This document shows positions 4,360 through 19,253 of a stretch of DNA of 24,926 bases, piece after piece; positions within the stretch are counted from its first letter, which is position 1, and every line of letters starts with the position of its first letter. The stretch covers positions 1-24,926 of IMG/VR virus record IMGVR_UViG_3300030107_002668. One strand, 5' to 3'. The notes below the pieces were generated by a model that saw nothing but the letters and a program-made list of their open reading frames with translations, was not told the origin of the DNA and did not search any database. The translations under genes and the position numbers were made by a program. This stretch comes from a virus.

Positions 4360-5574
4360 ATGGCTGAACCTAAAATACAATCTCCAAACATGTCAACAGC
4401 AATTGGTATGGGAACATTAAGTTCTAATACCGATTTGGCTTTAGCTGAAGTAGACATAGCGGAAATCAATGCTAAAGCTATAGAAGATAAAGAAAATCGA
4501 AGACAAAGAACGTATGAAACAACTCAAGATAGTTTAAAAACAATTAAAAATATTAACAAAGCACAAAAATTAGAAGATAAAATAAAAAAAGGTTATAAAT
4601 TATATCAAGAAAAAACTGGTCATCAGTTAAAATATGATAAAATTACACCAATGGATGTTTTAGATGACCCTAGTTTGTGGAATCAAGTAGGAGATGTAAT
4701 TATTACAGATACTGTTACTGGCGCTACATTTGAGCCTGGAAATTTTGCTGGTTTTGCAGATATACAAACTACTGAAGATTTTAAAGCTTTTGCTAATTCT
4801 ATAGATAAAGGCGATAAAAGTTATGTTAAACCAACTGAATACGGCGTAGAATATAAAGATGAAGGTTTTGATAGTGAATTTTCTATAAAAAGAGCTCAAA
4901 ACCCTGTTGTAAATGAACAGTTAGCAAGAGTTAAATATAGAGATATAGGTTTAAAAAATTGGGCTGGAGGTTCAGAAGTTTATGTAATGCAAATGCATGC
5001 AAATAGAGTTGGTGGCGTATATGATGAAAAAAATAAAATTATTAAATTTAAAGATAGTGATGAAACATTATCTATAGAAGATTTTAAAACTGGTGGAAAA
5101 GTATCATTTGATGATATAAAAAAAGATTTAGCTACATGGGAATCTAAAGGCGACCCTAATTTTATTGGATATAATACTGAAGAAAAAGGTGTAGAAAAAG
5201 ATAGTTTATATTACGGAACAAGAGATGTTGGTTTGTATGGTATAAATGAAAAAGATTTACGAGTAGACACTTGGACATATACTGACCCTGATTCAGGTTT
5301 TACAAAAGAAATAAAAACTCATGAAATTAGTAGTATACAAAATCCAGATGGAACATATTCTAAAGATAGACAATATGCTGAAATTCAAGGAATTATAGGT
5401 TCTTCTAGAGTTTTAACGCAAAAAGATGACGTATACCAAGGAGGAGGTATGGCAAGATTTTTAGGAAAACAATTAAAGAATTTTTTCACAAGAAAAAAAG
5501 ATGATAAAGATAAAAATTATGCTAGTAGCGCACAACATTCAATAGATTTATATAAAAATCAAGGAACAGAGTAA
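4360..5574 (+). CDS. Putative internal virion/ejection protein, 404 aa
   Basis: This 404-residue soluble protein starts at ATG 4360, with AGGA 7-10 nt upstream. The N-terminal 25 residues are low in charge (Ser, Thr, Met rich). A helical, probably coiled-coil stretch follows at about 26-90 (many Lys, Glu, Ile). A mixed alpha/beta middle comes next, and then a strongly basic C-terminal part (LGKQLKNFFTRKKDDKDK). I do not recognise a family. It is the first of five consecutive genes with the helical, charged make-up of internal or ejection proteins, which would put it in the capsid core or portal vicinity. This is inference from context. The start and frame are well supported by composition and by the overlap with the following gene. 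Confidence 0.5.
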   Translation: MAEPKIQSPNMSTAIGMGTLSSNTDLALAEVDIAEINAKAIEDKENRRQRTYETTQDSLKTIKNINKAQKLEDKIKKGYKLYQEKTGHQLKYDKITPMDVLDDPSLWNQVGDVIITDTVTGATFEPGNFAGFADIQTTEDFKAFANSIDKGDKSYVKPTEYGVEYKDEGFDSEFSIKRAQNPVVNEQLARVKYRDIGLKNWAGGSEVYVMQMHANRVGGVYDEKNKIIKFKDSDETLSIEDFKTGGKVSFDDIKKDLATWESKGDPNFIGYNTEEKGVEKDSLYYGTRDVGLYGINEKDLRVDTWTYTDPDSGFTKEIKTHEISSIQNPDGTYSKDRQYAEIQGIIGSSRVLTQKDDVYQGGGMARFLGKQLKNFFTRKKDDKDKNYASSAQHSIDLYKNQGTE

Positions 5575-6092
5575 TGAGTGCGGATGTAGGATTAGGATGG
5601 GCTAGTTTAGGTTTACAAACTATATCTACTATAGGTGCAGCTTCTGGTCAAGCGAGAGCAAATAGAGCAACTATAAAAGGTAATAATAAAGCAATTAAAT
5701 TATTAAATGAAAATTTAAGCTTATTACCAGAAATAGCGCAATCAAGAAAAGAAGGAGCTATGTCTGATTTAAATTTAGCTATGGGTCAAGCTGGATACGA
5801 AGGAAGAGAATCTTCTATTACAGCGTTTCAAGATTATGAAAACGCTTTAGGTAGTACTGGTTTTGCAGCAGATTATAGTATGCAAGATGCTTATGGAGAT
5901 TTTCAAAGAAAATTAAATGATAATTTTATGCAACAAAGAAAATCATTATTTTCTAGTTTAGATAAAAATCTAGCAGACATTGCAGAATGGCAAATGTCAA
6001 CAGAAGGACAATTAAAGTCCGAAAAAATGAAATTAGAAGCACAAAACGCTCAATTAAGAACTCAAGATTCTTTTTGGGAAAACATATTTTAG
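5574..6092 (+). CDS. gp14-like internal virion protein candidate, 172 aa
   Basis: This 172-residue protein starts at ATG 5574, overlapping the upstream stop (TAATG), with AAGGA about 10 nt upstream. The N-terminus is a mildly hydrophobic Gly/Ala/Ser helix (GLGWASLGLQTISTIGAASG, residues 6-25). A basic, Ala/Asn-rich helix follows (QARANRATIKGNNKA), then long amphipathic, Gln-rich helices to the end. This resembles in size and layout the smallest ejection protein of T7-like phages (gp14, about 200 aa, which enters the outer membrane). I see no diagnostic motif, so homology is not claimed. It is followed closely by larger internal-protein-like genes, as in a gp14-gp15-gp16 order. Confidence 0.45.
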   Translation: MSADVGLGWASLGLQTISTIGAASGQARANRATIKGNNKAIKLLNENLSLLPEIAQSRKEGAMSDLNLAMGQAGYEGRESSITAFQDYENALGSTGFAADYSMQDAYGDFQRKLNDNFMQQRKSLFSSLDKNLADIAEWQMSTEGQLKSEKMKLEAQNAQLRTQDSFWENIF

Positions 6093-6100
6093 GATAAAAA

Positions 6101-7558
6101 ATGGCAATTAGAAGAGCAAATATATTAGGAATACTTAATGAAATGTATGAAGCTGAACATAAAGAACATCAGCAAGAAAGAGATTTTGCTATTAAAGGAG
6201 TAGGACTTGCTATAGACGCAAAAAATAAAAAAGAATTAAGAAGATTGGAAGAAAAAAGACTTGCTATTACAGAAGCAGATGCTAAAGTACGTGCAAAACG
6301 TACAGAACAAATAATTAAATTAGAGGATGCTAAAGCTAAAAATGAAGAAAATAAAGAAATATTTAACAAATTAAGTACTTTAGCAAGTAACAATCGAAAA
6401 GAATTGGCAATAATGACTCAAGAAATGGCAACTAGATTGTACGATAGAATTATTGTACCTTCATTTACAATGTCTAATGGAGAAGTTGGATTTACCAATA
6501 CAACCATGATAAAAAAATTTACAGAATTAATTGGCAATGAACCTTTAGCTAAAGATTTAATTCAATTTGGTATGACAAGAAATGCAGAAAGCGGACTATT
6601 TCCAGAAATAGAAACAGAAGCTTTGTTATACGAATTATTTGGTAATGAAGATACAGCAAATTTATTGCAACAAGGTTTTGGTTTTTATGGAGATAACCAA
6701 TTTGCTATAGATAGAATGACTAAAATACAAGATGATTTTTTCTTATTTAAATCTCAAAACGATGAAATTGCTCAAGAATTACGAGAATATCAGGGTTTAG
6801 GAGATACTTCAATTGGCGAACCTTTAAAAAATTTATTATTATATGGAAGTACTGAAGCTCCTTTAAGAACAGATGAAGATACAATTGTTGATTTAGGTAA
6901 TGATATGATAGGAACTATTCCTGAAGGTGGATTAGAAACTTCTGAATATGAAGTTGTAAGTGAAGAAGAAATTGTAAAAAGTTTAGCATTAAATAAAGAC
7001 ATACCAAATGAAATATTAGATATACAAAATCTTTTAGGTCCTTTGCCTAGTTCAGAATTTGATAAAATAGCATATTTTGATAAAGTAGAAGATGTATTAA
7101 ATCAAAATAGTACTGCATGGACTGCTTATAAAGATGAATATGGAGATGTAGATACATCATTACCTCCTAGAAAAAATTATAAACAAGCTAAAAACTTTCG
7201 TCTTGATATTGTTCAAGAAATAAATAAAAGCGAAAATGCTTTGAGACAACATGAAAGAAAAATCTATGAAAAAGAAACATTGCACGGTAAAAGTACTGAT
7301 AAACAATTTTATTATTCTGACAAAGATAGAGCAAACGATGCTAAAATAGCATATTTGTTTAAATTGCAATTAGATTTATTAAATTATCATAAAGGTGTAG
7401 CAAATAAAAGAACAGACGATTTAACTGAAGTTATGAGCCCAGCTGGTAGATTTTTTAGTGGAGCAGGTTTAGACCAAGCTTTTGAAGAGTTAGAAAAAGA
7501 AAGTGAAATTAACACTCTATCTCTCTACGGCTTACCATTTCAAAGAAGAAATAAATAG
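6101..7558 (+). CDS. Putative internal virion/ejection protein, 485 aa
   Basis: This 485-residue protein starts at ATG 6101, with AGGA 6-9 nt upstream and 8 nt after the previous stop. Residues about 10-115 are a long, highly charged helix (for example KNKKELRRLEEKRLAI), very likely coiled coil. Two mixed helical regions follow, separated by an acidic, less ordered segment at about 230-300 (ending ...SEYEVVSEEEIVKSL). The C-terminus is basic (PFQRRNK). No transmembrane segment or catalytic motif is seen. Position and shape fit the middle ejection protein of a podovirus-type set (gp15 place), but this is inference. The stop lies 8 nt before the start of the giant gene. Confidence 0.45.
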   Translation: MAIRRANILGILNEMYEAEHKEHQQERDFAIKGVGLAIDAKNKKELRRLEEKRLAITEADAKVRAKRTEQIIKLEDAKAKNEENKEIFNKLSTLASNNRKELAIMTQEMATRLYDRIIVPSFTMSNGEVGFTNTTMIKKFTELIGNEPLAKDLIQFGMTRNAESGLFPEIETEALLYELFGNEDTANLLQQGFGFYGDNQFAIDRMTKIQDDFFLFKSQNDEIAQELREYQGLGDTSIGEPLKNLLLYGSTEAPLRTDEDTIVDLGNDMIGTIPEGGLETSEYEVVSEEEIVKSLALNKDIPNEILDIQNLLGPLPSSEFDKIAYFDKVEDVLNQNSTAWTAYKDEYGDVDTSLPPRKNYKQAKNFRLDIVQEINKSENALRQHERKIYEKETLHGKSTDKQFYYSDKDRANDAKIAYLFKLQLDLLNYHKGVANKRTDDLTEVMSPAGRFFSGAGLDQAFEELEKESEINTLSLYGLPFQRRNK

Positions 7559-7566
7559 GATATTAG

Positions 7567-10500
7567 ATGCCAGATTTAAAAACTATATTAGATGCACAAT
7601 CTAATTTATTAGATTTAAACCCAGAAGAAAAAGTACAACAACGTATTGCTGGGAATACAGTACAAACTCAAACAAACAGACCTCCTTCTGTTGCAGGAAT
7701 GATTCAACCTAGGCAACAACAACAAGTAAAGCCACAAGATGATAGAAATTTATTACAAAATATAGGTAAAGGATTGTGGGATTTTGGAGAAGAATTTATA
7801 CAACAAGGAATTGATACCGCATTATTAGGTATGCCTAGCGCTGGTACATTTACAGGTGGAAATCCATGGTTTGGTTTGTCTTATGATACAGACATAGATA
7901 GTTTTGCTGGTAAAGCTGGTCAAGCTATTGGTGGAGCTGCTGGTTTCTTGGTTCCTTTTGCTGGAACATCTAAATTCATTACTAGTCCATTAAGTAGAGT
8001 AGTAGCTAATGCTACAATGAATGCTGGTGGTAAAACTATGCAAAAGAAAGCTTTGAATGCAATTAAAAACGCATCTGGAAAACCGGGAGCAGTTACATAC
8101 GCAGATGATGCAATAGATAGTGTTAAAGAATCTAAAAATTTATCGGAATTATTTGATGAAACTATAGCTGCTCCATTTGCACAAAGTATGCGAGGTTTTA
8201 ATAAATTAAATCCTGAACAAAAAACTACATTTGCTAGTAAAATTGAAAAAGGTGCAGGTGAATTTATAAAAGAGCTTGCAGAAACTAAAGGTATAGTTTT
8301 AAGTGACGATGCTGTTAAAAGTATTACAACAGAAGTTGGTGAAATATGGATGCAGGCTGGAGGTAGACCTATTAATTCTTTACAAGGCTTAATTCATAGA
8401 GCAATGGGTCAAGGCAAATATACTGGATTCTATAGTCATATGTTTGAAGAAGGAGTAATTTTTGCAGCAGTAGAAAGTGGTATGCACGCCGTAGAAGTTA
8501 ATGCTGGAAACGAAGAAGCGCATTTTGGAACAGTAGCTAAAGATGCATTTTTGCTAGGACACGCATTTGGTTTAGTAAGATTTATACCTGGTGGTGTAGA
8601 AGGTGGAATGGGAATGAATCCAATTACCAAGACAGGTAGAGAGCGTATAGCCGCATTAATAAAAGGAGAAAGAGCTTATGCTAGAAGATATAATGTAAAT
8701 GACTCTACTGATAGAGAAAGTATTGCAGCTATGTATCAAAGTTATATGAATATTCCTAAAACTCCATTTAAGTATCCTGGTAGAGATTTAAGAGACGAAC
8801 CTATGGAAGAAATAATGACTACTATAGGAGAAAGAATGGGAGCTGGTAATTTAACAATGAACGGCGAAAGAATATTAAACCCTTCCCCATCAAGAATATT
8901 AAGAATATTACAAGATGGTACTGAAGCCGAACAAAAAGCAGCAGCTAAACACATGCAAGAAGTTTTACAAGAAATTATGAGAACAGGTCAAAGCAAATAT
9001 CGTAGAGAGTTTTTAAAAACAATGGGAGATGATGTATTAAAAAGTTCATTTAGAATGGCTGCTGGTGGAGTTGTAATGACTGGACCTGGAGTATTAATGG
9101 ATGATAATATTCCATTTGAAGAAAAAATGTTGCATTTTGCTATGGGTGCATTTTTAATGAAGAAAGGTAAAGTCTTAAATTATAGAGAAAAATTACCTGG
9201 AGGAGAGTTAGGAGCTTATAAAAAACATAGTTTAATGAGAGAATTTCCTAAAGATTTAAATAAAATAGGAGATTTTTACAAAACATTAGGAGTAGAAATT
9301 GTTAACAAAGATGGAAACATAGACCCTTTATGGTTAAAAACATACTTAGAAACAACAAAATTTGAAAAAGAATCAGGGGGAGAACAACAATTAAGTTTTT
9401 CTAATCCAAAAGCTATACAAGGATTAATAGATTTAGCACAATCTGGACAACCAATTGGTAAAGGTGAAATTTATAACCATTTTATAACAGACGCTAAAAA
9501 ACCATTAAAACCTCACAAAAGAGAATCTACTTTAGATAAAGAAAATTCATTTGTAAATGAAAGAGGAGAAAGACAAGTAATAATAGAAAGAAAAGTAGAT
9601 GAAGCAATTTATGAAAGTTTTACACGTAAGTTAAATAGCGTATTATCAGATAAACAAAGATTTAAAGAATGGAGCGAATTATCTCCAGCTGAAAAACAAA
9701 TGTGGAAAGATGGCATGGACAAATTGGAAATGCCTACAACTGAACTACAATTTGGTCAACAAAAATTAGAAAGATTGTTTGTAAAAGCTAATATAGATTC
9801 AGTTACAAACACTATGGAAGCATTACGAAATAGAGCAAATGAAGCAGCAGAAGCTTTAACTATTGACGGAAAAAATGATTTAACTCCATTGCCTATTGAG
9901 CTAGCTGATGGTAGTATGGCATTAGAATATAAAAAAATAGATATAAGAAATGCTGATTTAACAGCAGAACAAGCATATGCTATAAGACAATATAATCATT
10001 TAATAGAATTGTTAGCAAATAATGGTAGAGATAGAGTAGCAAATGCTAATGCAGATTTATATTTAAACACAAGAGCTACAAATATTCAAGGATTTGAAAA
10101 ATTCTTAAATGCTATTGATGAAGGTTTAAAAGATATGAATGGAGTTAGAATATCTGAAAACGGAAAAAGAGTTGGATTAGATTTGATACCAAAAGATTCT
10201 AATGGTGAAATTAATTGGGAAACACAAGACTACAAAACTAATTTTTCTGACCCTTGGCTATATAGATTATTAAGTTTAAATAAAATGGAAACATTAATAG
10301 ACTATACAGCTACTCATTTATTAAAGTATATGGATGTTTCAAACGCTAAATATGGTAAGAGTAGTTTAGGTAATAAATTGCGTGAAGTATTTATGGATGA
10401 TAATGGATTTTATGTTGCAACTGGAATAAAAATAACAAATTCTGATGGAAGCACAAATGTTAAAGAAACACAAATAGCTAGACTTTTATTAGAAACAATA

Positions 10501-13500
10501 AAACTATCAGGAGCTACAAGGTCAGAAGTAAAAAAGAATGAAGTTTCAAGAAGTGTAGACGAATTTAATGAATTGAAAAAAAGATTGTTAGGAGAAGGAT
10601 TTGATATATATCAAGAAAAACTAGCAATTAACGATTTTGATTTAACAAAATTAATTAGACAAAGAACTCTTGAATATAAATTAGCAAACGGAGAAATGCT
10701 TGTAGATGGAAAGCCAGTAAAAATAACAATGTCTGAAGTTCAAAAAATACAAGAAGGTATTGATAATGGATTAATTAATGACAATTTAACATTTACTCCT
10801 ATTGCTGATGTATTATTTGAATCATTAAACATTAAAGGTTTTCAAAAAATATTTAAAAACATAGGAAAAGAAGTTGAAATATTAAACTATGAAGATGCTT
10901 TTAAAATTATAGAAGCAGATACTTCTTTAAGCAAAGATAAAAAAGCCCAATTAATATCATTGTTAAAACAATTTCAAAAAGATAATCCTATGGAATCTGT
11001 ATTAGGTATATTTTCTGATGTAAAATTTATAAACGACACATTTATGTCATTAGTAAGAACTAAAGAAAATCCTAATGGTGTTTTGCATTTAGGCGATAAA
11101 GAATTTACAATGATGGATGATGCAAATATAAGATTGTTTAAAGAAAAATTATATCTTATGAAAAATCAAGCGCATTCAGAACAAGTAAATCAATTTATAT
11201 TTAAATTGGGAGAATTAGCTAATATTGAATCTAAACACAACAAAAGACTTATTAATACTTTAATAGCTGAATTACAATATTCTCAAAATCCATTAAGCAT
11301 ATATGCAATAGCTAGAGAATATGGTTTTTACAAAGAAGAAACAAAATCTTTTAAAGAAACACTTCCTGAAAGTGATGCAAATAAAATTATAGAAGCTATT
11401 AGAGATAGAACTCTTAGAGATTGGTCTCAAGATGACAAATTCTTACAAGAAGACGCTCAAAGATATTTAGAAAGTAGTCAAAAAGCAGAAAAAAATAAAA
11501 GTGACGTAAAGCCTCTTCGTATGCAAGAACTTATAAATACTTATGGTATTGCAGATGTATGGAAGCTTTCACCTACAAGCGAAAAAACTCAAACTCAATA
11601 CTTGCAAGATATTTGGAGAGATTCATATTTAAATAAAGAAGGTAAAGATGGACAAATTAATTGGGCTAAAAATGCAACTGATTTTGTAACAGACTTATCA
11701 AACAGCATAGCAAAAGCTTCTGAAGGAAAAAAGAAAGTAGAAGAAATATTACCAGCTGTACAAAAGTGGTTTAATACTTCTATAGAACAAAGAGACCATG
11801 TAATTGTTAGATTAAATTACGGAGCTCCTCAAAATTCATCTTTATCAAAAGGCGTACATCAAAATAATTTAGCTTTTGACCGCATAGATAAATTGCAAAC
11901 TGATAATAAGCAAAAAGCTAAAGTAATATTTTTAGATGGAAGTATTAATGTAGAAGGATTGCCAAAAACATCTACAGAATTAATGAGCGAAATAAAATCT
12001 ATGTTTTTTGGTGGTAAAGTGCAAACGTTGCCAGAAAATTTAGCTTCTAATCCATTAATAGAATCAAGTATGAACTTAAATGGTAAATCATTTTTTGTAT
12101 ATAAATTAGGAAATACTGATGCTTCATTTTTAATAAGAAATAGTCCACAAAATATAAATGCTATTGTTAATAATTATGGTAAATATTTAAAAGAATTAGT
12201 TGATGCTGGTATAATAAAGCAAAAATTTATGGATAATATTTTGAACAATAGTGGAAATGCTTCAATTAGATATAACGAAACAACAAAAAGATATGAACCT
12301 GTTAACGAACAATTTGGTGGAAAAGATATTGGAAATGAAAGAATACATGAAATTATGAATGATTATATTCTTGGTGGAATTTTTCAAAAAACATATTGGG
12401 AAAGCAATATGCGTGATGCTAGAGACAAAGAAGTTGGTGATTTAGTAAAAAGATTACCTTTAATAGCAAATACTAACGCTGTTAAATATGACGCAAATAA
12501 AATCTTATCAGTTTCTGAAGTATTAGATAAAAATAATATTAAAATAGATAATAAAGCAGAAGTTGTTAAAACTTTACAACAGCTTGCAAAAGGCGAACTT
12601 AAAGAAGTTGTATATGCTGATGAAACAATAGATGGAACAGGTTCTGTTTCAGAAAGATTTGATGTATTAAAAATAATTGAAACAGAATATAACGCTCTTA
12701 TAGAAAAAGCTAAAGCTGACCCAAATGCTCCTGCAGACTTAATAGAATCATTGACATTTGAAAAACAAAAATTATTAGAAAGCGCAGAAGCAAGTAGCGT
12801 AAATGGAATATCTTTTGTTACAGATAATCTTTTTGCAGCTACAAGTTATTTAGGCGGGGAACCAAATTGGAAAGAAGCTGGAGGTGTAAAACCTATTATT
12901 GTTAAAAATGTTAACGGACATATATTTGTACAAAAAACAGCATTCTTAAGAAATTCAGAAATGAAAGAATATTTTGACAACAATAAAGATGTTGCAATGG
13001 TAAGCTTCACAAGTGCTACTAAAAAAATTGGTAATAATTTAGATAACATAAAAATTATAGATGGACAAAAATTTGAATCACATTTAGAAGGAGCTGAAAG
13101 TATAGGAGTTGACTTTTTAAGACCTATTACTCCAGAAAGTATTAATATTGTAAGCGTAAAATCTAATAAAACACAAGCTTCTTTAGCAAGAAACAATACT
13201 GTGCATTTAAGAGGTAAAGAATTGGATGCTTATTATGATGCTATTCATAAACAAAGTATAGATAAAATCTTTCGGGATATTGCAGAATTAAAAGACCCAT
13301 ATGCTACACACCAAAGAAGTGCTTTATATAAAATGTTAATGAATGACAGAAAAACACAAGCTAGTGGAGATTTTAATTACGCAGAAAGTCAATCAGGAAT
13401 AGAAACTTTATGGGCTGAATTAGGAGGAGAACCATCCATGTTTCCTAGAAGTTGGGAAAATATGATAAAATCTGAATACATAGATAAAGAAATAGCTAAA

Positions 13501-16407
13501 AAAATAAATGGAGGACAAGGAGTTTTACAAGCTGATTTAAAAAATGAATTAAAAAATACTATTGTTGTAAATGGCGAAGTATTTCAATACGGAGAAGCAA
13601 GAATAGGTGATGTAAATAAAAATAAACTTATTAATCCAGACAGAATTACATTAATTAAAAGAAATGAAACAATAAAAGATGATTTAATGTCTTTAAGTGG
13701 AAACAAACCATTTGCTTTATTGCATAGAGAACTTAAACAATTAAGACAACAAGAATTAAATACATTAGAAAAAACTTTAGAATTATTTGAAAAATTTAAA
13801 AAAGACAATAATTTAAAAGATTATGACATTGCAATGAGCGCAGAAAGAAATCCTCATACAAAACCAAGTAGTGTTATGGTAGTTGCGTTAAAAGGATTTA
13901 CTAAAAATGGTAATGACGTAATATTAAATCACGCTGATTTAAAAAGAGCCGCTGAAGGAGATTTTGATATAGATACTGCTAACGTGTATTGGGAAATGCC
14001 TACACAGGTAGTTCAAGGATATGCTAGAGGTAGAGGTAAAGTTCAAGATTCTAATGTTATAGGCATAGAAACTAACGATGCTGCTTCATATTTTGGTGTA
14101 GAGCTTAAAAACCAAGGTAGTATGTTTGAGTTCTCAAGACGTGCTAAAGAAGCAGAGAAACTTAGAGGTCCTTTGATGAATATGCAAGGAGTACTACAAC
14201 ATTTAGAAAGTCATAGTAGTATGAGAAGTACTTATGAAAATAGTTCAGGAGTAGCTGAAAAACTAGTTATACGAGTTGGTCAAAATACTTATGTAACATT
14301 AAAAAGCGATTTAACAAAAACGCATCAATTAATCGCAGATTATGTTCAAGCTACATTAGACTCTAACAGCGGTTATGATATGAATAAAATAACATACGAC
14401 AATACTGTTAAAGAAATATTGTTTGGTGAAAATGGTGCATTTGAATTGAAAAAAATGAGCGATAAAATTAGTAAAGACACTGGTAATAAATATTTAAGAA
14501 GAGTTGTAAAATCTAAAGAAGGGGATAAAATAGAATATGTAGATTTAATAAACAATTTAGAAGCTCAAACAGTTGTTATGAAAATTATAGACCCTTATAG
14601 AAGATTGTTAAATTTAAGTACAGCTATATATGAAGGTGGAGAAGCACGAAGCGTAGGTTTAAGAGAGTTAAGTTCTGGTGTAAAAAATTATGAATATGAA
14701 ATGAAGAATGCTGAATTTGAAGCAATACAATATCTTCAAAAAGAAAAGAATTTCTTTATAGACAAAAAGGAAAACATATTTAATGGTTGGAATATGAACG
14801 CAAGACCTTCCCAGCAAACAGGACCTAATCAAGTTATTTATGATAAACTTTTAAGAAAATTATCTAAAATAAAAGAATTAAGCTTAAATGAAAAAAGCGA
14901 AGGACAATTAGATAAATTTGGTCAAGAAATTAATGATATGACTAACGAGGAAAGACTTGGGTCTAAAATATTTGTAGAACAATCTTCTGAAGGATTTACC
15001 AAATTAAATGATTTTGTAAAAAATCAAGCAGAAGCTGCTGAATCTCTTAATGCTATAGATAAAAAAATAGACGAAATGTATGCAGCTAGAAGACTTGCTA
15101 CAAACAAATCTGATAGAGATTATTATGATAGAAAAATAAAAGAATTAAGCAATAAAGATGGAACAGGACTTAAACAAAAAATACAAAAAAGATTATCTGA
15201 AGAATTTACTAAAGAAAAGAATGGAAAATTTAAGGGAGAAATTGCTAAAAAAATGTTGAAAAGATGGGAACAAAAAGTTACTGAAGAAATTTTAGCAAAA
15301 AAACCAGAAAACGAAAGATTTTTAACTGATAAAGATGTTAAAAATATTAAACAAATAGCAAAACAAAGATTAATAAAAAATGGTATTATTATAGAAGGAG
15401 CTCCTAAATCAGAAGTTATTCATGCTTTAACTTTACAAAATATGTTTTCAACTTATGCTATAGATTTTAAATCAGTAGGTTTAAATAAAATAAAATCTAA
15501 AGAACTTGATAAACAGGTAGAATTAATAAGAGATGAATTTAATAAAGCAGTAGATACTATAGTTAAAAGTAAAGAAGGACATACTTGGGATAATTTATAT
15601 AATCATACAGTTGATAGAATTGCAAAAGTTATAGATATGAATGCTAGTGGAAAAGAACGTTTTGCAGTAGAACAAATTTTTATGGCAAAAATTATGTCTC
15701 CTAGAGCTGATATTACAAAATTAATTAGTTATAAAGGAAATCTATATCCAGCTCCTCAATCTAAAAGAATGGATACTTTCGTTAAACTTGGTTTAAGCTA
15801 TTATGCAAAACAATATAAAAATGAACCGTTGATACTAAACGAAATTTATAGTAGATTAATAAGGTTTCATAAACAAGCTGATTATAAACTTAGAGGATTA
15901 GAAGCGGAAGGATTACCAGAAGGACCTTTAGCTAGACAAGAATTTTATCTTGAGCCATTAACATACAATGGTATGAAAAAAGATATGTTATTAGAAGTAT
16001 TTAGAGGAGATTTTCAAGCTAGTTTAGCTGGTCAAACAGATTTTAAACATTCAAGATTAAATGCTTATGAACAACTACATAAAGCTTTTGGAAGTGGTTT
16101 AATAAGAGATATTATGACAGATGGTACATTATTTACTTTACCAGATAGAGCAGTCATTGAAGCTGGAGCACACACAAGAGATATATCATTTGGTGGAGTT
16201 GCAGAATTTCAAAAAGCTATGGACCAAGGAATGAGGTCTGTTAAATTTGACAAAGATGGTGAAACGTATATAAGTACAGACGGAGGCGTTTTAAGAGTTA
16301 CAGATAGTGCAAAAATAGAAAATATTGGAAATACAAATAAAAAACCAAAAAATGTTGTACAAGATAAAGAACAAAAAAGAATTGATGAACTATTGGAGTG
16401 TTTTTAA
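7567..16407 (+). CDS. Giant virion-block protein with predicted two-barrel (DPBB) RNA polymerase core
   Basis: This 2946-residue protein starts at ATG 7567 behind AGGA. Residues 1-600 are Gly/Ala-rich with hydrophobic helices (about 114-138, 329-343, 495-512, 521-532) that could touch membranes during ejection. Residues 600-1600 are mostly helical. Residues 1745-1823 carry GGVKPIIVKNVNG, FVQK and SATKKIG, giving candidate catalytic lysines K1775 and K1790. Residues 2088-2142 carry RNP (2094-2096), LKGF (2108-2111) and GDFDID (2131-2136) followed by TANVYW. D2132, D2134 and D2136 would bind the catalytic magnesium. Residues 2254-2280 (LIADYVQATLDSN... NT) resemble the segment following this motif in crAss-like polymerases. 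The C-terminal third is helical with coiled coil around 2490-2530. The polymerase family is known from QDE-1/RDR, YonO and crAss-like virion polymerases (phi14:2 gp66). Packaging and injection are inferred from the ejection-gene context. An unrelated polyvalent-type protein is the alternative. Confidence 0.7.
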   Translation: MPDLKTILDAQSNLLDLNPEEKVQQRIAGNTVQTQTNRPPSVAGMIQPRQQQQVKPQDDRNLLQNIGKGLWDFGEEFIQQGIDTALLGMPSAGTFTGGNPWFGLSYDTDIDSFAGKAGQAIGGAAGFLVPFAGTSKFITSPLSRVVANATMNAGGKTMQKKALNAIKNASGKPGAVTYADDAIDSVKESKNLSELFDETIAAPFAQSMRGFNKLNPEQKTTFASKIEKGAGEFIKELAETKGIVLSDDAVKSITTEVGEIWMQAGGRPINSLQGLIHRAMGQGKYTGFYSHMFEEGVIFAAVESGMHAVEVNAGNEEAHFGTVAKDAFLLGHAFGLVRFIPGGVEGGMGMNPITKTGRERIAALIKGERAYARRYNVNDSTDRESIAAMYQSYMNIPKTPFKYPGRDLRDEPMEEIMTTIGERMGAGNLTMNGERILNPSPSRILRILQDGTEAEQKAAAKHMQEVLQEIMRTGQSKYRREFLKTMGDDVLKSSFRMAAGGVVMTGPGVLMDDNIPFEEKMLHFAMGAFLMKKGKVLNYREKLPGGELGAYKKHSLMREFPKDLNKIGDFYKTLGVEIVNKDGNIDPLWLKTYLETTKFEKESGGEQQLSFSNPKAIQGLIDLAQSGQPIGKGEIYNHFITDAKKPLKPHKRESTLDKENSFVNERGERQVIIERKVDEAIYESFTRKLNSVLSDKQRFKEWSELSPAEKQMWKDGMDKLEMPTTELQFGQQKLERLFVKANIDSVTNTMEALRNRANEAAEALTIDGKNDLTPLPIELADGSMALEYKKIDIRNADLTAEQAYAIRQYNHLIELLANNGRDRVANANADLYLNTRATNIQGFEKFLNAIDEGLKDMNGVRISENGKRVGLDLIPKDSNGEINWETQDYKTNFSDPWLYRLLSLNKMETLIDYTATHLLKYMDVSNAKYGKSSLGNKLREVFMDDNGFYVATGIKITNSDGSTNVKETQIARLLLETIKLSGATRSEVKKNEVSRSVDEFNELKKRLLGEGFDIYQEKLAINDFDLTKLIRQRTLEYKLANGEMLVDGKPVKITMSEVQKIQEGIDNGLINDNLTFTPIADVLFESLNIKGFQKIFKNIGKEVEILNYEDAFKIIEADTSLSKDKKAQLISLLKQFQKDNPMESVLGIFSDVKFINDTFMSLVRTKENPNGVLHLGDKEFTMMDDANIRLFKEKLYLMKNQAHSEQVNQFIFKLGELANIESKHNKRLINTLIAELQYSQNPLSIYAIAREYGFYKEETKSFKETLPESDANKIIEAIRDRTLRDWSQDDKFLQEDAQRYLESSQKAEKNKSDVKPLRMQELINTYGIADVWKLSPTSEKTQTQYLQDIWRDSYLNKEGKDGQINWAKNATDFVTDLSNSIAKASEGKKKVEEILPAVQKWFNTSIEQRDHVIVRLNYGAPQNSSLSKGVHQNNLAFDRIDKLQTDNKQKAKVIFLDGSINVEGLPKTSTELMSEIKSMFFGGKVQTLPENLASNPLIESSMNLNGKSFFVYKLGNTDASFLIRNSPQNINAIVNNYGKYLKELVDAGIIKQKFMDNILNNSGNASIRYNETTKRYEPVNEQFGGKDIGNERIHEIMNDYILGGIFQKTYWESNMRDARDKEVGDLVKRLPLIANTNAVKYDANKILSVSEVLDKNNIKIDNKAEVVKTLQQLAKGELKEVVYADETIDGTGSVSERFDVLKIIETEYNALIEKAKADPNAPADLIESLTFEKQKLLESAEASSVNGISFVTDNLFAATSYLGGEPNWKEAGGVKPIIVKNVNGHIFVQKTAFLRNSEMKEYFDNNKDVAMVSFTSATKKIGNNLDNIKIIDGQKFESHLEGAESIGVDFLRPITPESINIVSVKSNKTQASLARNNTVHLRGKELDAYYDAIHKQSIDKIFRDIAELKDPYATHQRSALYKMLMNDRKTQASGDFNYAESQSGIETLWAELGGEPSMFPRSWENMIKSEYIDKEIAKKINGGQGVLQADLKNELKNTIVVNGEVFQYGEARIGDVNKNKLINPDRITLIKRNETIKDDLMSLSGNKPFALLHRELKQLRQQELNTLEKTLELFEKFKKDNNLKDYDIAMSAERNPHTKPSSVMVVALKGFTKNGNDVILNHADLKRAAEGDFDIDTANVYWEMPTQVVQGYARGRGKVQDSNVIGIETNDAASYFGVELKNQGSMFEFSRRAKEAEKLRGPLMNMQGVLQHLESHSSMRSTYENSSGVAEKLVIRVGQNTYVTLKSDLTKTHQLIADYVQATLDSNSGYDMNKITYDNTVKEILFGENGAFELKKMSDKISKDTGNKYLRRVVKSKEGDKIEYVDLINNLEAQTVVMKIIDPYRRLLNLSTAIYEGGEARSVGLRELSSGVKNYEYEMKNAEFEAIQYLQKEKNFFIDKKENIFNGWNMNARPSQQTGPNQVIYDKLLRKLSKIKELSLNEKSEGQLDKFGQEINDMTNEERLGSKIFVEQSSEGFTKLNDFVKNQAEAAESLNAIDKKIDEMYAARRLATNKSDRDYYDRKIKELSNKDGTGLKQKIQKRLSEEFTKEKNGKFKGEIAKKMLKRWEQKVTEEILAKKPENERFLTDKDVKNIKQIAKQRLIKNGIIIEGAPKSEVIHALTLQNMFSTYAIDFKSVGLNKIKSKELDKQVELIRDEFNKAVDTIVKSKEGHTWDNLYNHTVDRIAKVIDMNASGKERFAVEQIFMAKIMSPRADITKLISYKGNLYPAPQSKRMDTFVKLGLSYYAKQYKNEPLILNEIYSRLIRFHKQADYKLRGLEAEGLPEGPLARQEFYLEPLTYNGMKKDMLLEVFRGDFQASLAGQTDFKHSRLNAYEQLHKAFGSGLIRDIMTDGTLFTLPDRAVIEAGAHTRDISFGGVAEFQKAMDQGMRSVKFDKDGETYISTDGGVLRVTDSAKIENIGNTNKKPKNVVQDKEQKRIDELLECF
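12781..13035 (+). other. Predicted first DPBB (beta-subunit-like) with two lysines
   Basis: These are residues 1739-1823 of the giant protein. The order is SVNGISFVT, a 20-residue linker, GGVKPIIV (K1775), NGHIFVQK (K1790), an acidic DNNKD stretch, then SFTSATKKIG. In RDR/QDE-1 polymerases the same place has a D-G-x-G-x-I-S motif, a G-G-x-K-G motif and a second lysine. In crAss-like polymerases, from memory, it has K-P-x-x-Y and S-A-V-K-V-G motifs. The order matches; the exact spacing was not tested by alignment. Confidence 0.5.
13828..13992 (+). other. Predicted second DPBB (beta'-subunit-like) with metal-binding DFDID
   Basis: These are residues 2088-2142 of the giant protein. AERNPHTKPSS is followed by a short strand, LKGF, a turn (KNGNDVI), a helix, then EGDFDIDTANVYW. 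D-x-D-x-D is the absolutely conserved magnesium site of all two-barrel RNA polymerases: DFDGD in cellular enzymes, DLDGD in RDRs, DFDxD in crAss-like phage enzymes. The glycine before it, the V-x-W after it, and R-N-P about 37 residues ahead are the RDR-type surroundings. Confidence 0.65.
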
Positions 16408-19253
16408 TGGCTAAAAAATCATGCGCACCTTTAACAATAGGACAAAAACATCGTATGAAAGCGTTGTTAGAAATGTCTGCTGATTTTGGTAAAAACGAAA
16501 GTGTAAAACAATTAGGAGAATATGGCGATGTTCTTTGGCAAAATATTAAAAGAAAAGTTATTGGAGATAATTTGCCTTCAGATGGATTGCCAAGTGTTGA
16601 GCAATTAAGTATGATTAAATCTACTTACAAAAGAGAATTAAAAAATATGACCAAAGATAGAAAAGGTTTTGGTGAGTGGTTTTATTTGCCTTCAGAAATA
16701 TATAAAGACGTAGGATTTGTAAAAAATTGGTTTAATAGTGTCCAACAATCACACGCTGTTAAAAAAGGTAATGATTCTCAATCTAAAATTATGATGCAAA
16801 ACATATATGATGCACTTAAAGCAGCAGCTATAGATAAAGGTTTTATGGAAAATTTTGATAAACCAGGAACTATAAAAGGAGCTTTTCAATCAAACATACA
16901 TAAAAGAATAGCACAGCATTACATGGAATATAGAAAACTTTTAAAAGAAAGTAAAAGTAGAGCTTATGAATATTATAAAAACACTATTGAAAAATTTTTA
17001 ACAGAAGGAGAAGGGGTTGTTTTAAAAGAATTTCACGAATTAGTCACTATGTCTCCTAATCAATATAAACGAGCTGTTAAAGGTGGACAATATGGCTATT
17101 TAGCAAAAGCGGCAATTGAATGGAAAAAATTAGATAAATTTGCTATGGATTTAAATTTAGCTGGATTAAAAAATTATTACAATGCTTTAAGATATAATCA
17201 TTCGGTGTTAAAAAATTATGACGGATACAATACAGTATTAAGACAAATAGATTCTATGTATAAACAATTAAAAAAACATAGAGACCAAGGTAGTGCATAT
17301 TTTCCTGTATTAACATTTGATATATTACCTACTTTAGCAGAAGTTTCTGGGAATCTGTTTAATTCAGGACAAAAATCAGGAAAAAGTTGGAAAGAAGGAG
17401 TAGATGCTGTTAATAAATTGCAAGATATTTTAGATAAAAATGTATATGTTAGTAGAAACCTTAAAGATGGTTCTATAGAATCTAAAGAAATAGAATACAA
17501 TGTTATTCCTATTATGGATAATTACATTAAAACAGCAACAAGATTTAATTATGTTAGTTATAATAATGCTAAATATATAGAAGCTACAAAAAATTTATGG
17601 AAAAGTTTTAGTAGTGATTCTAAAAACTCTCCTACAGCTTTAGATAAAAAATTAGAGTTTTATGAAAGTTATATGTCAGATACTCACGGATTAATTACAG
17701 GAGAAGCTTATCAAGGTAGTGAAGCTCAAAGAAATTTTGCAAGAGCTTTAACTTCATATCAATTTATGAGTAAACTCGGTTTAAACGTTAGAAGTGCGGC
17801 TAGAAATTCTTCGCAAAGTTTGTTAAACTATGTTTATTTTGGAGGTAAAGGTATAAGTGATTATTACCAATGGAAAGGTAATCCAGATAACAAAGTAAGA
17901 GTAGAGCAAGGATTAGCAAATAATGGTACTTTATTTGGAGAAATTCGTGAAATTTATATGGATGGTTTACAACAAAATGTAAAAAATGCTGATGGTACAT
18001 ATTCTCAAAAATTTGATTTAACTATGGGAGACAAAATAGCTGAAGGTTTAAATATAGCTGCTGAAAAATCTGGGTTTATGATGCAAGCAGTTGAAAATAA
18101 ACTTAATCGTAGATATACTTTTGAATTAGGATATTCAGAAAAATGGAAAGCAGATGATAGAATTGAGCCTCAATTAAGACAAAGATTTGAAAAAAAACTT
18201 GCTAAAGATTTAAAAAATGAAGGCAAAGGAGAAACAGTAGAACAATTAAAACAAGAAACTGATTCATTGTTTGAAAAAAATGACAGCACTCGTTTTGAAG
18301 TAAAGTTTGAACAATACAGAAGACAAAGAGCAGAAAGAATGGGTGAAAAAGCTGTTAATATGTTACACTTTGATTATAGTCCTTTAGCTAAACCTAAAGC
18401 TTTAATAACTCCTCTAGGTTCTGTTGTAGGTCAATTTCAATTTTATGGATTGTCTTTTTTTAATTTGCAAAAAAACATAGTAACAAAAGGTAAAGACGCT
18501 ATGTTGGCTGGTGCTTGGAATCATCCACAAGCTTTTAGAATGTATCGTTTAGGATTTTTATATGCTGGAGTAGTTGGATTAGTTTCAGCTTTAACAAATT
18601 CTGATGTAGGCAATCTTGTACAAAATGATACAATTGAAAGAATAAATCAAATTAGAAATTATTCATTTGGAGACGATGAACAATCTGAAAGAGCTTATTA
18701 TGGTAAAGGTCCTATTGCTGGTAATTTAGGTCCTACAGTAGCAGACATGGTTAATTTAGGAAATTTAAGTTTATTATATAATTTAGATGAAGAAGGTTAC
18801 GCTGCATTGGTTTTAGGATATGAAGACCATCGTGATAAAAGTCCAAGTGAAAGATTAGAATTGTTAGTAAGAGGACTTAATACTCAAGCAGGTAGAACTA
18901 TTTATGATACAATACCTAAATTAAGAAAAGGAGTAAATCCTTTTATTCTCTTACAGTCAGAATTAGGATTGTGGAGTAACAATGAAATTAAAGAAAGAAG
19001 AAAATGGCTAGGAGAAAATGTTCCTGTTTTAGGTAATTTCTTTTTAGATGAAGATATAGTTCGTAACAAACTTTTAAGTTCTCCTAAACCTAGAGGTTTA
19101 ACAAGACAAGAATTTCAACAACAAAATTTACAAAGATTTCAAGTTGCAATAGGTTTAAGAGATGAAGTAGAGCCTGTTAAAAACCCATTTGGTCAAGATG
19201 AAGCAGTTATAGAATCTTTAAGACGACTATCAGAAGCAGAAGTTAATTTCTAG
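16407..19253 (+). CDS. Large helical internal virion protein, polyvalent-like, 948 aa
   Basis: I choose ATG 16407, which overlaps the previous stop (TAATG) and has GGAG 8 nt upstream. A GTG at 16398 would add three residues but has no ribosome site. The protein is almost entirely helical and Lys-rich. A segment LGLNVRSAARNSSQS (residues 457-471) resembles a short motif seen in large phage polyvalent or internal proteins. A hydrophobic helix lies at about 713-731 (LGFLYAGVVGLVSAL) and is preceded by an aromatic patch (GQFQFYGLSFF) and followed by Gly-rich loops. Such a C-terminal membrane-active region suits an ejection channel protein. It directly follows the predicted polymerase and could help it cross the envelope. 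No catalytic motif is recognised. The 3' end overlaps the convergent gene by 11 bp. Confidence 0.5.
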   Translation: MAKKSCAPLTIGQKHRMKALLEMSADFGKNESVKQLGEYGDVLWQNIKRKVIGDNLPSDGLPSVEQLSMIKSTYKRELKNMTKDRKGFGEWFYLPSEIYKDVGFVKNWFNSVQQSHAVKKGNDSQSKIMMQNIYDALKAAAIDKGFMENFDKPGTIKGAFQSNIHKRIAQHYMEYRKLLKESKSRAYEYYKNTIEKFLTEGEGVVLKEFHELVTMSPNQYKRAVKGGQYGYLAKAAIEWKKLDKFAMDLNLAGLKNYYNALRYNHSVLKNYDGYNTVLRQIDSMYKQLKKHRDQGSAYFPVLTFDILPTLAEVSGNLFNSGQKSGKSWKEGVDAVNKLQDILDKNVYVSRNLKDGSIESKEIEYNVIPIMDNYIKTATRFNYVSYNNAKYIEATKNLWKSFSSDSKNSPTALDKKLEFYESYMSDTHGLITGEAYQGSEAQRNFARALTSYQFMSKLGLNVRSAARNSSQSLLNYVYFGGKGISDYYQWKGNPDNKVRVEQGLANNGTLFGEIREIYMDGLQQNVKNADGTYSQKFDLTMGDKIAEGLNIAAEKSGFMMQAVENKLNRRYTFELGYSEKWKADDRIEPQLRQRFEKKLAKDLKNEGKGETVEQLKQETDSLFEKNDSTRFEVKFEQYRRQRAERMGEKAVNMLHFDYSPLAKPKALITPLGSVVGQFQFYGLSFFNLQKNIVTKGKDAMLAGAWNHPQAFRMYRLGFLYAGVVGLVSALTNSDVGNLVQNDTIERINQIRNYSFGDDEQSERAYYGKGPIAGNLGPTVADMVNLGNLSLLYNLDEEGYAALVLGYEDHRDKSPSERLELLVRGLNTQAGRTIYDTIPKLRKGVNPFILLQSELGLWSNNEIKERRKWLGENVPVLGNFFLDEDIVRNKLLSSPKPRGLTRQEFQQQNLQRFQVAIGLRDEVEPVKNPFGQDEAVIESLRRLSEAEVNF

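Follow-up and report, generated by a model that had tools for sequence, protein, structure and literature searches.

What a phage would do with a single late gene for 2946 amino acids is the question raised by the window analysed here, the whole of an IMG/VR virus record (IMGVR_UViG_3300030107_002668; 24,926 bases). The open reading frame (ORF) of this gene, whose product is hereafter called the giant, runs from an ATG at 7567 to 16407 on the + strand without internal stops. A preliminary description, made from the letters of the window, had read the product as an injected two-barrel RNA polymerase in a lineage other than the crAss-like phages. The motifs on which it relied were all found at the residues it gave: GDFDID at 2131-2136 and then VYW, RNP at 2094-2096, LKGF at 2108-2111, and GGVK and FVQK ending at K1775 and K1790. 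The order of these putative active-site residues is that of RNA polymerases. Of the clear Shine-Dalgarno sites that it mentioned, the one at the giant is AGGA, 6 bases 5' of the start codon. We propose, with a probability of roughly 0.8, that the gene encodes a virion-packaged, DNA-dependent, single-chain two-barrel RNA polymerase within the largest ejection protein of a podovirus. The predicted fold, the conservation of the putative active site, the place of the gene and the depletion of cysteine were established by computation. The features of the giant are as follows.

7567..16407, + strand: the giant, 2946 amino acids, a proposed single-chain two-barrel RNA polymerase inside an ejection-type protein (ORF, conservation, predicted fold)
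7567..9246, + strand: residues 1-560, conserved, glycine-rich N-terminal region (conservation peaks in bins 101-150, 301-350 and 451-550)
12064..14886, + strand: residues 1500-2440, predicted folded polymerase core (AlphaFold2 and PDB fold matches)
12784..13041, + strand: residues 1740-1825, beta-like double-psi barrel region with invariant K1775 (12889-12891), K1790 (12934-12936) and K1819
13846..13974, + strand: beta-prime-like barrel motif R2094-x-P2096 ... G2131-D-F-D-I-D2136 with the metal-binding loop (R, P, G and D-x-D-I-D invariant in 24/24)
14113..14211, + strand: residues 2183-2215, probable bridge helix (predicted helices 684-699 and 701-716 in model numbering, with a break near invariant G2201)
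16399..16401, + strand: codon of C2945, the giant's only cysteine and its penultimate residue (cysteine counts)

Predicted fold and putative active site

Residues 1500-2440 were modelled with AlphaFold2 from 23 sequences, without templates and with one near copy (L015) omitted. The resulting model (predicted local distance difference test, pLDDT, 81.7; predicted template modelling score, pTM, 0.81) is predicted to carry a single-chain two-barrel RNA polymerase fold. The first Foldseek match in the PDB was 6vr4_A, the virion RNA polymerase gp66 of phi14:2 (E 4.5e-9), and matches two to four were three QDE-1 chains (E about 3e-7), in line with the two barrels that the preliminary description had expected of a predicted structure. 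P74 gp62 and P32 gp64 matched at E 0.004-0.01, and cellular RNA polymerase subunits at E 0.007 upward with low probability. VIA-align was run over 901 chains preselected by Foldseek, and the best 50 of the 901 are by title all RNA polymerases or transcription complexes. Rows 1-18 hold single-chain two-barrel enzymes at Z 10.0-13.1, among them RDR2 (Z 13.1, 443 residues aligned, root-mean-square deviation (rmsd) 4.6), QDE-1 (7y7s_A; Z 12.7, 510, rmsd 5.7), P23-45 gp96 (Z 10.6, 308, rmsd 4.5), phi14:2 gp66 (Z 10.3, 688, rmsd 5.5) and P32 gp64 (Z 10.1, 404, rmsd 4.5); from row 19 cellular and vaccinia enzymes appear, at Z 8.1 and below. In model numbering, K1775 and K1790 fall within two neighbouring predicted strands (274-283 and 286-291) and the aspartates of the metal-binding loop between a predicted helix (623-630) and a strand (638-642). 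Residues 2183-2215 probably correspond to the bridge helix.

A first model, built from 13 sequences (pLDDT 63), gave a best PDB Foldseek E of 0.2, and the core was refolded with 23 sequences instead. With that first model VIA-align placed RDR2, QDE-1, P32 gp64 and P74 gp62 in the first 13 rows (Z 5.2-6.6). Seven predicted viral proteins in BFVD also match it (E 6.5e-31 to 4.4e-4), which makes it probable that public protein data contain relatives; a crAss-like match in BFVD, likewise from this weaker model, has a probability of 0.82 and E 0.047.

It is very unlikely that these barrels belong to some other two-barrel enzyme, either a PolD-like DNA polymerase or an RNA-templated enzyme of the QDE-1/RDR kind. 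PolD shares the two barrels (PMC10770324). The two highest Z values belong to RDR2 and QDE-1. A search for family A DNA polymerase, the one DNA polymerase family sought, found none in nine records (G006, G008, G013, G014, G017 and G019-G022), and none is among the 25 of 33 PHROG families listed for the early genes of G006. Against such an enzyme, the best Foldseek match, phi14:2 gp66, is titled a DNA-dependent RNA polymerase, the best 50 VIA-align rows are RNA polymerases or transcription complexes, and the gene of a replicative enzyme should lie in the early block. We also know of no RNA-templated step in such phages. A DNA-dependent RNA polymerase is the preferred assignment of the core.

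Relatives of the giant were sought in IMG/VR. One scan led to a contig of 44.6 kb whose protein is 96% identical; this contig was also among 13 loci reached with a 68-residue stretch around the motif; a profile scan added L030, and the profile including L030 then reached the more distant L050, L059, L060 and L064-L072. Core identity to the window protein falls to about 20%. Twenty-four proteins were aligned, leaving out L007 and L008 (near copies of L006) and L072 (a fragment starting just before the metal loop); among the 24, L030, L064 and L066 lack the N-terminal part and L050 the C-terminal end. Only 26 window positions are invariant in this alignment. They include K1775, P1776, K1790, K1819, R2094, P2096, E2130, G2131, D2132, D2134, I2135 and D2136, as well as G2201 in the probable bridge helix, A2257, Q2261 and D2265; by residue, 3 of 286 lysines, 1 of 128 arginines, 2 of 82 prolines and 6 of 183 aspartates are invariant.

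The DxDxD loop, the upstream RxP and the paired first-barrel lysines are present in every aligned protein. All seven putative active-site residues named from the single sequence (K1775, K1790, R2094, P2096, D2132, D2134 and D2136) are invariant, and that reading had already picked out two of the three invariant lysines and the sole invariant arginine. Because they stand among only 26 invariant positions of 24 aligned proteins, the named motif residues are more than chance. The loss of the loop aspartates in homologues, on which the preliminary description had let its reading depend, was not observed: D2132, D2134 and D2136 are kept in 24/24, as are K1775 and K1790. Its motif set stood in part: R-x-P and G-D-[FY]-D-I-D are invariant, whereas LKGF and DFDID as written vary, K2109 being R in seven of the 24 and F2133 being Y in 12. 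Between-group core identity as low as about 20% might suit a decayed polymerase domain retained as structural filler of an ejection protein, but the few residues that stay unchanged while the rest varies include those of the putative active site, and we regard such decay as highly improbable beside a functional RNA polymerase.

At the level of sequence the giant matched no described family convincingly. PHROGs gave nothing convincing (best E 0.019 for any member), Pfam nothing significant (best E 0.08), tblastn against INPHARED no convincing match (best E 2), and PDB sequences, compared with the single protein and with profiles, an unrelated best match at E 0.22. Among bacterial genome contigs there were 55 pattern matches and no relative, and hence no prophage or host link.

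Comparison with known enzymes places the giant beside several systems. QDE-1 and RDR2, eukaryotic polymerases of RNA interference that share the single-chain two-barrel fold (Z about 11-13), are cellular enzymes for small-RNA synthesis and have no phage delivery parts. N4 gp50 (Schitoviridae) is a single-subunit polymerase of the T7 type, with a fold unrelated to that of the giant; for a T7-like polymerase domain in the giant there was no significant Pfam match, the first 18 VIA-align rows being single-chain two-barrel enzymes. In layout N4 gp50 resembles the giant, as the largest ejection protein (~3500 amino acids) with N- and C-terminal parts around a polymerase core, and it is accompanied by two further ejection proteins (PMC12633501). 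T7 gp16 would be comparable in gene order, as the largest protein following two small ones; the roles of T7 gp14, gp15 and gp16 are told in the same source, where gp16 recruits the host enzyme and is not called a polymerase. P23-45 gp96 (PDB 8H2N) is a two-barrel virion polymerase within a giant virion protein, of which it forms the N-terminal part, the protein being a 5,002-residue tape measure (PMC10770324), whereas the core of the giant lies at 1500-2440 and its gene beside those of small late proteins.

The best Foldseek match, phi14:2 gp66 (PDB 6VR4), is a single chain with two barrels like the giant, 688 residues being aligned, and is a virion component of a crAss-like phage that moves into the host with the DNA (PMC7886860). 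It differs in its carrier, which belongs to the Crassvirales, whereas the carrier of the giant has N4/Zobellviridae-type terminase relatives, and in length (2166 residues in the PDB chain against 2946). The giant is depleted of cysteine, with one terminal cysteine. No sequence similarity between the two was detected in the searches made (PDB sequences, PHROGs, INPHARED). This absence of sequence kinship to crAss-like RNA polymerases is not decisive, because many two-barrel families have no significant similarity beyond the DxDxD region, as stated in the P23-45 paper (PMC10770324).

Cysteine depletion and the late-operon neighbourhood

The genes on either side of the giant are the following.

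4360..5574, + strand: 404-residue cysteine-free late-operon protein (no convincing family match)
5574..6092, + strand: 172-residue cysteine-free protein (gene order kept in related contigs; no convincing family match)
6101..7558, + strand: 485-residue cysteine-free protein (gene order kept in related contigs; no convincing family match)
16407..19253, + strand: downstream protein, 948 residues from the ATG at 16407 (alternative GTG at 16398, 951 residues), its only cysteine at codon 6 (16422-16424)

The giant has one cysteine in 2946 residues, against about 21-23 expected from the cysteine content of other ORFs in G006 and G008 (0.73-0.79%), or 15 from that of the late-gene stretch L040 (0.51%). 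Exactly one cysteine, last or penultimate, was counted in all 23 aligned giants that retain the C-terminus, 20 of which are full length; the L050 giant, cut by the contig end, has none. The counterparts of the three upstream proteins in G006 and G008 are likewise without cysteine. By position, the 172- and 485-residue proteins would be the counterparts of T7 gp14-like and gp15-like ejection proteins, respectively. The order and sizes of these genes would suit ejection proteins, although a family match is lacking for each of them. According to published descriptions, N4-like virion RNA polymerases (vRNAPs) contain no cysteine, which may serve their passage through the tail and periplasm (PMC3715699, PMC3915230), and this mark was used to propose a vRNAP in a podophage paper (PMC10747016). 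The view that the giant is probably packaged in the virion and injected, already put forward in the preliminary description, is strengthened by the depletion of cysteine and by its cysteine-free small neighbours. The N-terminal region (residues 1-560) is 11.1% glycine and shows no clear transmembrane helix by hydropathy; it is possibly a part that interacts with a membrane or channel.

By analogy with phi14:2 gp66 (PMC7886860), P23-45 gp96 (PMC10770324) and N4 gp50 (PMC12633501), a nearly cysteine-free chain of about 2900 amino acids would lie in the head together with the products of the small upstream genes and would pass, unfolded, through the tail and periplasm before the DNA. Once refolded in the cytoplasm, it would transcribe the early gene block, the task that phi14:2 gp66 and N4 gp50 perform for their phages. 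Packaging, ejection and promoter use by the giant are what we infer.

Alternatively, the giant might be a two-barrel RNA polymerase that is made late and stays inside the cell, outside the virion, and that owes its size to other intracellular domains. P23-45 gp64 is an enzyme of this kind (PMC10770324), and structures of the gp64 type match the model (8f72, 8f5m). An enzyme confined to the cell would, however, have no need to be almost free of cysteine over 2946 residues, nor does it fit a late-operon gene between those of cysteine-free small proteins and of a one-cysteine protein of ~950 amino acids; the solved gp64 chain, moreover, has 595 residues against 2946 here. We consider this alternative unlikely and retain a packaged polymerase as the preferred reading.

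Several points weigh against a packaged polymerase. The core model was built from 23 sequences only, and the TM-scores obtained with Foldseek are modest, with TMq 0.40 to gp66 and an identity of about 10%; with the first, weaker model, unrelated chains reached up to Z 5.1 and gp66 was absent among the matches listed. The upstream proteins match no ejection family, their best match (E 0.0061) having no function. Several other late proteins are low in or without cysteine, so that depletion is not unique to the giant. No promoter was established: the candidate element described below, exact in five of 20 records, is absent from G006, and with one mismatch it has eight matches against six of a reversed control. 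A T7-type RNA polymerase was not found in 19 records, a weak result because the search control gave no signal. The large late proteins of ICP2 (Zobellviridae; 1416 and 660 amino acids) have neither DxDxD nor cysteine, and a cysteine-free internal protein thus exists there without the motif.

An injected single-chain two-barrel polymerase is known; the family, its carrier lineage and the cysteine arrangement are new. Our literature search, which covered few subscription papers, returned no report of two-barrel polymerases in such podoviruses or of terminal cysteine pairs, and the passages of a podovirus-evolution paper (PMC10386132) around RNA polymerase, internal virion proteins and ejection do not mention such an enzyme. 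Injected two-barrel RNA polymerases, reported for crAss-like and P23-45-like phages, would be extended to podovirus-like phages. The contigs of the carrier group are about 52-56 kb long, and one of them, at 53.3 kb, is probably complete; their largest protein is unannotated in the libraries searched. The findings suggest that a polymerase became part of the largest ejection protein in different lineages of phages, with unrelated folds: the T7 type in N4 and two barrels here. The 24 diverse sequences, together with the confident model of the core, make it possible to annotate the class and to assay it.

The terminal cysteine pair and a second lineage

In 24 of 24 loci the downstream protein contains exactly one cysteine, placed among residues three to seven from the ATG, with N-termini such as MAC, MGC, MAEC, MARC, MPC, MVKC, MAKKSC, MTDFTKC and similar. 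The 24 include L072 and exclude L050; four lack their 3' end and L009 is in two pieces, and for these the count refers to the part seen; the loci are not independent, several being near-identical. Exactly one cysteine was counted in 14 of 72 other ORFs of 300-2000 amino acids, and the only one with it in the last two residues must be the truncated G014 giant (1870 amino acids). At most junctions the genes of the giant and of the downstream protein overlap over a short distance, frequently as TAATG, and a GGAG-like site lies within the final codons. Both cysteines are kept where the genes are separated, by 14 nt in L064 and by 9 nt in L072; both cysteine codons, TGT and TGC, are used, and the cysteine of the giant is in the last or the penultimate place. 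Conservation across gaps, with both codons and at either of the last two places, argues against a mere constraint at the DNA level.

A second lineage, hereafter B, was recognised from a second giant in G011 (3056 amino acids; L038:7972-17139, - strand) with the motif RNP...GGADKDAD. Eight loci were found (L078-L085), of which six were examined (L079 and L080 excluded); their proteins, of 3056-3218 amino acids, all have RNP...GGADKDAD and 0 cysteines. Lineage B is probably a further two-barrel polymerase family. In profile comparisons with the lineage described above (A), the first-barrel region matched B 853-939 with a score of 40.6 (24.7 for the best of 20 shuffled decoys), the second-barrel region matched B 1125-1277 with 32.0, and the N-termini scored 32.9 against a decoy score of 24.6. 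Residues 632-751 of the downstream protein matched the C-terminus of the B giant (2847-2963) with 56.5 and E 3.4e-5, against 31.5 in 30 decoys; the downstream-family profile comprised 19 sequences, shortened to a later ATG. The C-terminal part of the A giant did not exceed its decoys (29.2, decoys 31.3). The A-to-B matches keep the same order along the chain. HHalign probabilities are low, at 72% for the downstream protein and 12.9, 1.9 and 2.5% for the others. Judged by the score excess and this order, lineage B looks like a fusion of giant and downstream protein.

The split pair has one cysteine at each facing end and the fused form has none, which is the basis for proposing a disulfide tether. 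More weakly than the delivery itself, we suggest that the C-terminal cysteine of the giant and the N-terminal cysteine of the next protein might form a reversible disulfide: the two would be stapled together when oxidised, in the released virion or the host periplasm, would travel as one chain, and would part in the reducing cytoplasm, freeing the polymerase. This proposal is tentative and, in our estimate, has rather less than even odds. At somewhat better than even odds, the paired cysteines are unlinked and reflect a nucleotide-level constraint on the junction or another purpose such as homodimer formation. The mostly short overlaps, with TAATG and the GGAG-like site in the last codons, are as such a constraint would have them, but the cysteine is kept at the non-overlapping junctions of L064 and L072, in the penultimate or last place and as TGT or TGC, and the fused proteins of lineage B are without cysteine in six of six. 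As a tether, the pair makes a simple testable prediction on the coupling of giant proteins that cross the envelope.

Carrier phages and non-coding elements

In related contigs the gene order is terminase, endolysin, portal, head proteins, fibres and a block of small proteins, followed by the giant, a ~900-residue protein and a strand switch, beyond which lie a Holliday-junction resolvase, DnaB helicase, DNA methyltransferase and small early genes. In the window, as in six contigs with listed ORFs (G006, G008, G011, G013, G014 and G021), the gene of the giant is on the late strand. Two elements of the context reported in the preliminary description were recovered in the window, the adjacent strand switch, which begins after 19253, and a GTA-type holin at 854-1225 (GTA_holin_3TM, PF11351, E 2.4e-13). 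An ORF of the same length lies at the same place in the closest relative (L001, 3281-3652). G006 (53,449 bp) has 123 identical bases at both ends and one such giant, and is probably complete. Its early genes include matches to DnaB, Sak, SSB and exonuclease families, and DNA replication in these phages may depend on the replicase of the host or on one that escaped recognition.

The closest relative was assigned terminase phrog_38, portal phrog_156 and major head protein phrog_1328. Among the annotated relatives of the terminase (40 of 325 records listed) were Roseobacter, Vibrio ICP2-like and N4-like podoviruses. Such N4-like and Zobellviridae-type podoviruses accord with the earlier suggestion that this polymerase type occurs in another phage lineage. 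No crAss-like phage name appeared among those 40 records, Crassvirales markers not being searched singly, and the portal had five weak matches. A tape-measure gene was not recognised among the proteins scanned, which did not include every ORF; this is consistent with a short tail, and the carriers, all uncultured, are probably podoviruses.

G011 (L036-L039) and G013 (L032-L035) each contain two differing late structural, terminase and portal-like sets that meet near the fibre genes, and both records are probably chimeric assemblies. They were used for gene order and for their giants and not for judging gene absence, except that G013 was included in the searches for T7-type RNA polymerase and family A DNA polymerase.

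The early intergenic region of G006 has 24 sigma-70-like sites, no excess over shuffles (mean 22.0). An N4-like hairpin promoter (repeats, TACATCAA word) was dropped as a candidate, the hairpin-like block of G013 and G008 being part of a longer conserved stretch. The promoter search left a shared candidate element, ATAACATGGGSATA, which is unproved; the sites scored with its matrix (24-29) were those used to build the matrix, and on one occasion a shuffled short record reached 23.3. The form ATAACATGGG[GC]ATA occurs exactly, once in each of five records, at the following sites.

G013, 14753, + strand (L032)
G008, 36614, - strand (L044)
G014, 16976, + strand (L041)
G009, 9626, - strand (L073)
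G017, 35859, - strand (L074)

The copies in G013, G008 and G014 are located in the long non-coding region that precedes the early genes and are oriented towards these genes; G013 and G008 also have shorter copies directed at the late operon. It is a candidate phage promoter or replication element.

Rfam at the gathering threshold gave nothing on L048, L044, L032 or the window. A block of ~290 nt in which no gene was called, at about 44,970-45,255 of G006 (L048) and about 35,473-35,761 of G008, is 84% identical between these two otherwise diverged phages and is possibly a structured RNA.

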